A stretch of 64,000 bases of DNA from Streptomyces sp. 1-11 (GTDB taxonomy: Bacteria > Actinomycetota > Actinomycetes > Streptomycetales > Streptomycetaceae): positions 248,001 through 312,000 of the forward strand of contig NZ_BJTV01000009.1 in the NCBI RefSeq assembly GCF_007176755.1, written 5' to 3'. Below the pieces are notes generated by a model that made no database searches, was not told the DNA's origin, and saw nothing but the letters and a program-made list of their open reading frames with translations. The position numbers were made by a program, and so were the translations under genes. Positions 7,402-7,499 of the stretch are shown here, in pieces; position 1 is the stretch's first letter; every line of letters begins with the position of its first letter.

Positions 7402-7499
7402 GGCGGAGAGGGCAGGATTCGAACCTGCGTGGGCCCCGAGGGGGCCCGACCGTGAGGCGAGCTCGCTGGTCCCCGATCAACCGCTCCGGGCACCTCTCC
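7402..7499 (-). ncRNA. tRNA-Ser-like element without an anticodon loop, copy A
   Basis: Reading the minus strand, 7499 to 7404 folds as a class II tRNA body: 7-bp acceptor GGAGAGG/CCTCTCC, discriminator G, D arm CCCG/CGGG whose loop contains GG, long variable arm GGGCCC/GGGCCC, and a perfect T arm GCAGG-TTCGAAT-CCTGC. Where the anticodon arm should be, the bases are GACC A GCGAG CTCGC CTCAC GGTC. These form an extended stem with a loop of about five bases and no canonical U-turn anticodon loop. The bases after the discriminator are CCG, not CCA. A second copy at 20740-20838 shares every helix. A hairpin (CCCGTG/CACGGG) lies about 35 bases upstream. Confidence 0.6.

Follow-up and report, generated by a model that had tools for sequence, protein, structure and literature searches.

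A family of tRNA-Ser-like RNA genes without an anticodon loop accompanies azoxy biosynthesis genes in Streptomyces

Two RNA genes that resemble class II serine tRNAs and carry a closed hairpin in place of the anticodon arm lie in the window, i.e., the whole 64-kb stretch of DNA analyzed here (C9:248001-312000 of a 7.85-Mb draft genome). They belong to a family with a characteristic anatomy, covarying helices and a promoter motif that recurs in an azoxy gene cluster of the same genome; across genomes, the family co-occurs with the gene of the transferase VlmA and commonly adjoins it. Judged from these comparisons of sequences, the RNAs are probably non-decoding, pathway-dedicated seryl carriers for aliphatic azoxy products of the valanimycin/KA57-A/elaiomycin type. 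The broader claim appears probable as well: a class of tRNA would have shed its anticodon loop and would work solely as an aminoacyl carrier for a specialized pathway, from up to ten dispersed gene copies that the cluster regulator would switch on together with the antibiotic genes.

Anatomy of the RNA genes and their anticodon-arm hairpin

Both copies in the window (Table 1) are of class II, with a 7-bp acceptor (GGAGAGG/CCTCTCC), a 4-bp D stem, GG in the D loop, a long variable arm, the T arm GCAGG-TTCGAAT-CCTGC and discriminator G, all intact. The arm between the D stem and the variable arm is a plain hairpin in both (GACC-A-GCGAG / CTCAC-GGTC). The minimum-energy fold of copy B selects another register of the same arm, AGCG with CGCT around the loop AGCA; either register gives a hairpin that has no anticodon loop. 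The preliminary description of this DNA had reported two class II tRNA-Ser-like genes without an anticodon loop, and both are indeed present in the sequence and found by the covariance model, with the acceptor, the D arm with GG, the long variable arm, the T arm TTCGAAT and the discriminator G that it listed. Its span for copy B (20740-20838) was correctly located, except that the model starts the gene one base further in, at 20741; the stem it described, with loops that differ between the copies, can be formed in both, although not as the minimum-energy register of copy B.

Table 1. Features of the two RNA genes in the window
Feature	Positions	Strand	Basis
tRNA-Ser-like RNA gene copy A, without anticodon loop	7402..7499	(-), 5' end at 7499	sequence; covariance model 112.6 bits
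tRNA-Ser-like RNA gene copy B, without anticodon loop	20741..20838	(-), 5' end at 20838	sequence; covariance model 106.2 bits
Copy A anticodon-arm replacement, GACC-A-GCGAG / CTCAC-GGTC helix, loop CTCGC at 7457-7461	7448..7471	(-)	sequence, fold, family covariation
Copy B anticodon-arm replacement, loop CACG at 20797-20800 (family pairing)	20788..20810	(-)	sequence, fold, family covariation
Copy A putative SARP-type operator, three GTCAG repeats, 11-bp period, 14 of 15 letters	7558..7584	(-)	pattern match at G000:C9:255558-255584
Copy B putative SARP-type operator, three GTCAG repeats, 11-bp period, 14 of 15 letters	20897..20923	(-)	pattern match at G000:C9:268897-268923
Copy A -10-like hexamer CAGGCT, 8 bp after third heptamer	7542..7547	(-)	sequence; family profile
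Copy B -10-like hexamer CAGTCT	20881..20886	(-)	sequence; family profile
Copy A leader, conserved block near predicted start	7500..7541	(-)	alignment, family profile; transcription start inferred
Copy B leader	20839..20880	(-)	alignment, family profile; transcription start inferred

Folding energies of the exact genes gave z-scores of -1.68 and -2.42 for copies A and B, which is modest evidence, and -0.37 for copy A folded one base shifted. Single-copy folding energy was set aside as weak proof of structure, and the main support is comparative. At the gathering threshold, Rfam matched no family in the 64-kb window, and ARAGORN forced a cloverleaf on the two copies, as "Ala-CGC" and "Leu-GAG". 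The neighboring genes encode a sigma-70-family factor (6370-7317, forward strand), a cytidine-deaminase-like protein (7640-8545, reverse strand) and a mycothiol-S-transferase-like protein (21065-21640, forward strand), none of which looks linked to the RNA genes.

The source genome holds ten copies: two in tandem on contig C1, two each on C7, C9 and C30, and one each on C4 and C8; the pair in the preliminary description is real, and the other eight, the promoter and the azoxy link had been missed. A covariance model (R1), for which 26 distinct copies from six genomes were aligned, the two window copies included, scores family members at 60 to 118 bits, and reports nine of the 11 canonical class II tRNAs of the source genome at only 27.6 to 46.3 bits. 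A search of the genome with RF00005 (E ≤ 0.001) matched 72 tRNAs and none of the ten copies. ARAGORN labels across the ten copies (Ala, Leu, Met, Val and Arg, with two copies left unlabeled) are inconsistent and were discarded as an indication of tRNA identity. Thus, tRNA finders miss or mislabel these RNA genes. The copies resemble one another from the promoter through the 3' end of the RNA, the resemblance fades beyond these limits, and partial extra copies were not reported in the source genome at E ≤ 0.001.

Across the family, 227 sequences were collected, of which 177 are distinct. Predicted folds place a hairpin at the arm position in all 177, with loops of 3 nt in 27, 4 nt in 90, 5 nt in 49 and more in 11; the loops are thus 3 to 5 nt long in 166, often UUCG or GNRA, with UUCG and GCAA the commonest (16 each). 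A 7-nt loop with T33 appeared in none of the 177 predicted folds, and in a control of 11 canonical class II tRNAs, the same folding recovered such a loop in 4, a loop of another size in 3 and no parsable arm in 4. Because folding over-extends stems in these canonical controls, a fold-free geometry test was added: a 5-bp stem with a 7-nt T33 loop could be written by force into 4 of the 177 family sequences, compared with 2 of 177 shuffled arms and 10 of 11 canonical tRNAs. The 5-bp anticodon stem and 7-nt loop with U33 of a decoding tRNA are therefore not a feature of the family. These observations bear on the idea that the RNAs are unusual tRNAs that still decode through a shifted or compact anticodon loop. 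Four sequences do take such a geometry by force, and ARAGORN gives anticodons to most copies; however, the assigned identities clash between copies, and canonical serine tRNAs exist in the genome (GCT twice, TGA, CGA and GGA), so that continued decoding is extremely improbable.

Covariation was assessed in 118 distinct rows of a model-fitted alignment, one of which is a tRNA-Ser-GGA at 43 bits. Changes on both sides were found in 19 of 28 pairs, versus a mean of 8.4 in shuffled alignments, none of 500 of which reached 19; since the alignment was fitted to the tested structure, these counts are biased towards it, and slid controls remain far below. Likewise, 96.8% of the cells pair versus a shuffled mean of 91.1%, and two-sided changes occur in 156 cells versus 31.5 (0 of 500 shuffles in both cases). 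In the unusual arm, all seven counted pairs show changes on both sides. The acceptor and T arm are conserved partly by construction in rows retrieved by the pattern search, because the pattern fixed most of their letters and left the unusual arm free; the 55 rows found by the model have the acceptor GGAGAGG in 51 cases and GGAGAGA in 4. The 7/5 acceptor-T helix (7 + 5 pairs), the long variable arm and the discriminator G are those of a class II RNA with serine identity. In a metagenome actinobacterium (L313), two family RNAs stand side by side at 4312-4390 and 4410-4501, the first just 79 nt long.

The compensatory changes for which the preliminary description had proposed to search other Streptomyces, with a covariance model, are thus found in the unusual stem, and its argument that conserved helices with varying loops speak against decay is borne out family-wide. 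Among the outcomes that it had named as overturning its reading are random substitutions in all stems of homologs and a standard anticodon loop that had been overlooked; the stems of the homologs covary instead, and the loop can be forced into few family members as opposed to nearly all canonical tRNAs.

A promoter motif common to the RNA genes and an azoxy cluster

At C4:420-459 kb, the source genome encodes homologs of VlmK (MmgE/PrpD), VlmJ (diacylglycerol-kinase type), VlmH, VlmO, VlmB and VlmA (PF09924), along with a second seryl-tRNA synthetase (SerRS), a SARP (PF03704), a desaturase, an aldehyde dehydrogenase, an aminotransferase and a large polyketide synthase (PKS). Homologs of VlmA, VlmB, VlmH and VlmO, whose clustering typifies Vlm-type azoxy loci, therefore occur together on C4, and one RNA copy lies inside the cluster (455923-456018), between vlmA and the SARP gene. 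The cluster proteins are 59% (VlmB), 62% (VlmO), 54% (VlmH) and 57% (VlmA) identical to those of Streptomyces sp. NBC_00212, the VlmH value having been measured with the G033 protein, itself 94% identical to VlmH of the source genome. The NBC_00212 counterpart of VlmB is annotated as "VlmB-like," and that of VlmO is a hypothetical protein near it; Pfam returned no match for VlmO of the source genome and only a sub-threshold AurF match for its VlmB. In addition to PF09924, VlmA has PDB matches to the MprF/aminoacyl-phosphatidylglycerol synthase sequence family. Related clusters are present in genomes G003, G033 and G035 (no SerRS was seen in that of G035), and a smaller set is present in G038. 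In the valanimycin pathway, the reported role of VlmA is the condensation of seryl-tRNA with an alkyl-hydroxylamine, and VlmL serves as an additional SerRS (PMC9379638, PMC11705231).

Upstream of the RNA genes lies a triplet of GTCAG repeats. With at least 12 of its 15 letters, this triplet precedes 135 of the 153 distinct first copies with enough upstream sequence, versus none of 153 shuffled stretches and none of the 60 regions flanking 30 canonical tRNAs. Within tandem arrays, the inner copies lack it (0 of 22), as expected if each array is one transcription unit. Arrays of three RNA genes, about 125 to 143 bp apart, stand beside vlmA in L179 (2835-3178), L164 (9997-10340), L169 (9686-10031), L284 and L334. 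In the source genome, nine of the ten copies reach 12 triplet letters, and the copy at C7:429193 has 9 of 15. In 116 aligned sites (≥13 letters), a -10-like CAnnnT, with fixed letters conserved at 92, 91 and 91%, is placed 8 bp downstream of the third heptamer and is followed by a conserved leader start. At the predicted transcription start, the leaders open with a block of about GTGAACGGCACGGG that is more strongly conserved than a promoter requires. The rule reported for SARP promoters is heptamer repeats with 4-bp spacers that end 8 bp before the -10 element (PMC7040171); the sites of the RNA family have this layout, i.e., heptamers with an 11-bp period and 8 bp to the -10 hexamer.

With at most one mismatch, the triplet has ten matches in the source genome, seven at RNA genes (both window copies among them) and three in the C4 azoxy cluster, and the reversed control pattern has two; this exclusivity to RNA genes and azoxy cluster applies to the source genome, as four other searched genomes have triplets elsewhere too. 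The triplets are hence putative SARP operators common to the RNA genes and the azoxy cluster, to which the SARP would be expected to bind. A second polyketide cluster, in L083 (G003:C1:410001-424000), has several GTCAG triplets near 417.4-417.7 kb and a PKS about 56% identical to that of the azoxy cluster, and is possibly under the same SARP.

Distribution and linkage to vlmA

In a sample of the genus, the RNA was found in 29 of 246 genomes (E ≤ 1e-6), with one to ten copies each. In a sample of the class, the model matched 9 of 394 genomes, five of which are true carriers after review. Matches at L379-L382 (52 to 58 bits, outside the genus) proved to be canonical tRNA-Ser and were removed; L378, which has three tandem RNA copies in another family, was kept among the five. 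Also rejected were a 193-nt match in L322, which is an RNA copy broken by a run of N, and, at E ≤ 0.01, 19 matches in 16 genomes other than the RNA of G168 (36 to 46 bits), which ARAGORN identifies as canonical Tyr, Ser, Cys and Trp tRNAs and one Glu tRNA. A pattern scan of named species yielded at least 119 stretches with at least 142 matching copies; the stretches listed include at least 98 from Streptomyces, 9 from Kitasatospora, 3 from Actinokineospora and 2 from Salinispora, and, among the matches listed, there is at least one each from Embleya, Streptacidiphilus, Wenjunlia, Saccharothrix and Micromonospora and at least two from metagenome assemblies. Because the RNA itself was used to retrieve these named loci, they are biased towards it, and some come from the same strains as sampled genomes; the sampled genomes alone are unbiased.

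VlmA-family matches (E ≤ 1e-40) occur in 50 of the 246 genus genomes, seven of which (293 to 323 bits, long ORFs) were set aside before counting as MprF-like, a label given by score and ORF length. The remaining 43 VlmA genomes comprise 28 with the RNA and 15 without. VlmA is accordingly encoded in 28 of the 29 RNA-bearing genomes versus 15 of the 217 without the RNA (Fisher p = 7e-25; 246 congeners), and the 29th carrier, G168, has a divergent VlmA (36% identical) about 2.4 kb from its RNA. The class sample agrees: of nine VlmA genomes among the 394, those that score above 500 bits and those that carry the RNA are the same five, and the other four, which score below 450 bits, all lack the RNA. 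A VlmA tree was built from 67 rows (two short fragments omitted from 69); some genomes appear twice in it, and the named rows all have the RNA because of how they were retrieved. The rows without the RNA fall into two clades, one of 14 rows (SH-aLRT 98) and one of G073 and G086 (100), such that RNA presence requires two changes versus 14.7 in shuffles.

The 14-row clade (L217-L229 and L232) has a different cluster, mostly VlmO-VlmA-VlmH with an aminotransferase and SRPBCC, in whose stretches SerRS, VlmJ, VlmK and VlmB matches were not found. In genomes G073 and G086, a serine-type cluster includes VlmJ/VlmK, SARP genes and GTCAG boxes, yet the RNA is missing: at E ≤ 0.01, the search gave zero model matches in G073 and a single one in G086, a tRNA-Tyr. 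The RNA is therefore not strictly required. In the 15 VlmA genomes without the RNA, ARAGORN reported no other tRNA-like gene in the stretches taken around vlmA, which were up to 20 kb long (14 kb in G001). Outside these samples, the stretch around a VlmA homolog on an Embleya plasmid contains no RNA, only a 16.9-bit match. The plasmid pBPHY01 of the betaproteobacterium Paraburkholderia phymatum (L422) encodes a VlmA homolog at 47% identity, and no matching RNA was found in the 20.9 kb taken.

Where vlmA and the RNA share a stretch, 37 of 46 pairs are less than 1 kb apart and 35 of these 37 are divergent; 36 of the 37 lie within 350 bp, most commonly at 194 bp (distances are taken to the edge of the VlmA match, and some stretches repeat one strain). 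VlmA is encoded on 13 plasmid records; the RNA is matched in ten of them by blastn and in an eleventh by the covariance model, although several of these plasmids are near copies of one another; two more plasmids, from S. collinus Tu 365 and NBC_00557, match the RNA and carry no VlmA. The eleventh, from NBC_00212, has a valanimycin-type cluster (PLP decarboxylase, acetolactate synthase, ilvN, ilvC, VlmB-like protein, serS, MmgE/PrpD, kinase and SARP) and two tandem RNA copies, which begin 182 bp after the SARP gene and are preceded by a perfect GTCAG triplet. In S. viridifaciens, an ilv operon is reported beside the valanimycin cluster and a valine decarboxylase within it (PMC4353338). The RNA and VlmA also share a stretch in S. 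atratus JCM 3386 (L298); another strain of this species, NRRL-16927, is given as the source of elaiomycin (PMC11705231).

A VlmL-type second SerRS (>460 bits; other SerRS score 208 to 250 bits) is present in 16 of the 29 carriers versus none of 25 comparison genomes (p = 3e-6), a set made up of the 15 that encode VlmA but lack the RNA and another 10 selected from the sample. Pfam, PDB matches and the annotation in NBC_00212 all identify the accompanying synthetase as a SerRS. Where carriers lack the VlmL type (13 genomes), 11 encode only one SerRS, and the charging of the RNA would fall to that enzyme. Other SerRS paralogs (213 to 236 bits), neither apparently housekeeping nor of the VlmL type, were seen in G063 (no RNA), G117, G146, G169 and G201.

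Dispersed similar copies within a genome and a patchy distribution are also what decayed tRNA-Ser copies, integration sites or a mobile repeat might leave behind. Such an origin is highly improbable given the strong covariation, the promoter motif at most first copies, the co-occurrence with VlmA, the lack of partial extra copies in the source genome at the threshold above and a similarity bounded by the promoter and the 3' end of the RNA.

Proposed function and known systems

As a dedicated seryl carrier, the RNA would act as follows. The cluster SARP would bind the GTCAG triplet and turn on the biosynthetic genes and the dispersed RNA genes together. RNase P and the CCA-adding enzyme would mature the transcript, and a SerRS, either the second SerRS of the cluster or, elsewhere, another and usually the housekeeping one, would read the long variable arm and the acceptor and attach serine. 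The closed hairpin in place of the anticodon arm would keep the ribosome from using the RNA. VlmA, a GNAT-fold aminoacyl-tRNA transferase, would then move the seryl group to an alkyl-hydroxylamine, after which the N-N bond would be formed. Copy number and SARP control might match the supply of carrier to the demand of the pathway. VlmA is reported to have been characterized with Ser-tRNASer (PMC12945691), so that an ordinary tRNA-Ser can apparently serve it. On the simplest reading of all the results, the RNA would be the preferred seryl carrier of the VlmA step. The preliminary description had suggested an RNA that can be serylated and cannot decode, serving as a seryl donor outside translation, a tRNA mimic or a regulator; the co-occurrence and adjacency with vlmA, the VlmL-type SerRS and the shared promoter lend support to the donor, and this genome context makes the mimic and the regulator less attractive.

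A regulatory RNA or sponge would bind SerRS, VlmA or another factor and tune the supply of seryl-tRNA or the expression of the cluster without donating serine. The high copy number, the coordinated SARP-type promoter and the loops that vary from copy to copy would suit a titrating RNA, and regulatory pseudo-tRNAs are known, such as tRNAOther of B. cereus (PMC3399842). We nevertheless consider this role unlikely: the loops are too variable for a common antisense target, the acceptor and T arm needed for charging hardly vary in the model-found rows, and the RNA genes are linked to the gene of a transferase reported to use seryl-tRNA. That the RNA is a carrier of some other amino acid, or serves another enzyme of the cluster, is very unlikely. 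Its acceptor does differ from those of the canonical tRNA-Ser genes of the genome, and azodyrecin biosynthesis has been proposed to use alanyl-tRNA with a VlmA homolog (PMC9379638). However, the RNA has the long variable arm and the discriminator G that suit a SerRS, the synthetase accompanying it is a SerRS, and homologs of VlmJ or VlmK, which act on the serine-derived unit, are encoded in several RNA-bearing stretches.

A seryl carrier of this kind bears on the open question of how biosynthetic enzymes that use tRNA obtain aminoacyl-tRNA in competition with EF-Tu and the ribosome. For the valanimycin pathway, a 2014 review lists the diversion of Ser-tRNASer and the elements read by VlmA and VlmL as unknown (PMC4052509); if correct, the proposed function would explain how azoxy pathways divert serine from translation, and it is directly testable. 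It would also make an RNA a component of a biosynthetic gene cluster and suggests that such clusters may include non-coding RNA genes, even far outside the cluster. This would matter for heterologous expression because protein genes moved alone may leave the carrier RNA genes behind. A tRNA that can be charged and does not decode could, moreover, be a useful tool.

Among known systems, the MprF/aminoacyl-phosphatidylglycerol synthases share their sequence family with VlmA, as the Pfam and PDB matches indicate. MprF-type synthases act on lipids with aminoacyl-tRNA, and to our knowledge, they have no dedicated tRNA. The valanimycin pathway with VlmL and VlmA is a close parallel, with the same type of cluster, the same two enzymes and a SARP regulator, and the valanimycin-type cluster of NBC_00212 includes two of the RNAs; among the papers listed, no title or abstract opening describes a dedicated RNA of this kind. 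The allo-tRNAs have a long variable arm and SerRS identity elements, and some are reported to be unusable in E. coli translation (PMC7609411); unlike the RNA family, with its 7 + 5 pairs and no anticodon loop, they have a 12-bp acceptor branch arranged as 8/4 or 9/3 and a real anticodon. The tRNAOther of B. cereus is likewise a tRNA-like RNA outside translation, but it has a Trp anticodon, is charged poorly with lysine in vitro and has no reported link to a biosynthetic transferase, according to the account consulted (PMC3399842). Finally, a peptidoglycan tRNA-Gly isoacceptor of S. aureus, seemingly poor in translation, supplies a non-ribosomal enzyme (PMC4810233); there, the amino acid is glycine and the destination is the cell wall, whereas here, the anticodon loop is gone and the promoter motif is shared with an antibiotic cluster. 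Thus, tRNAs specialized for non-ribosomal use are a known kind, exemplified by the S. aureus tRNA-Gly, and the RNA without an anticodon loop would be an extreme variant.
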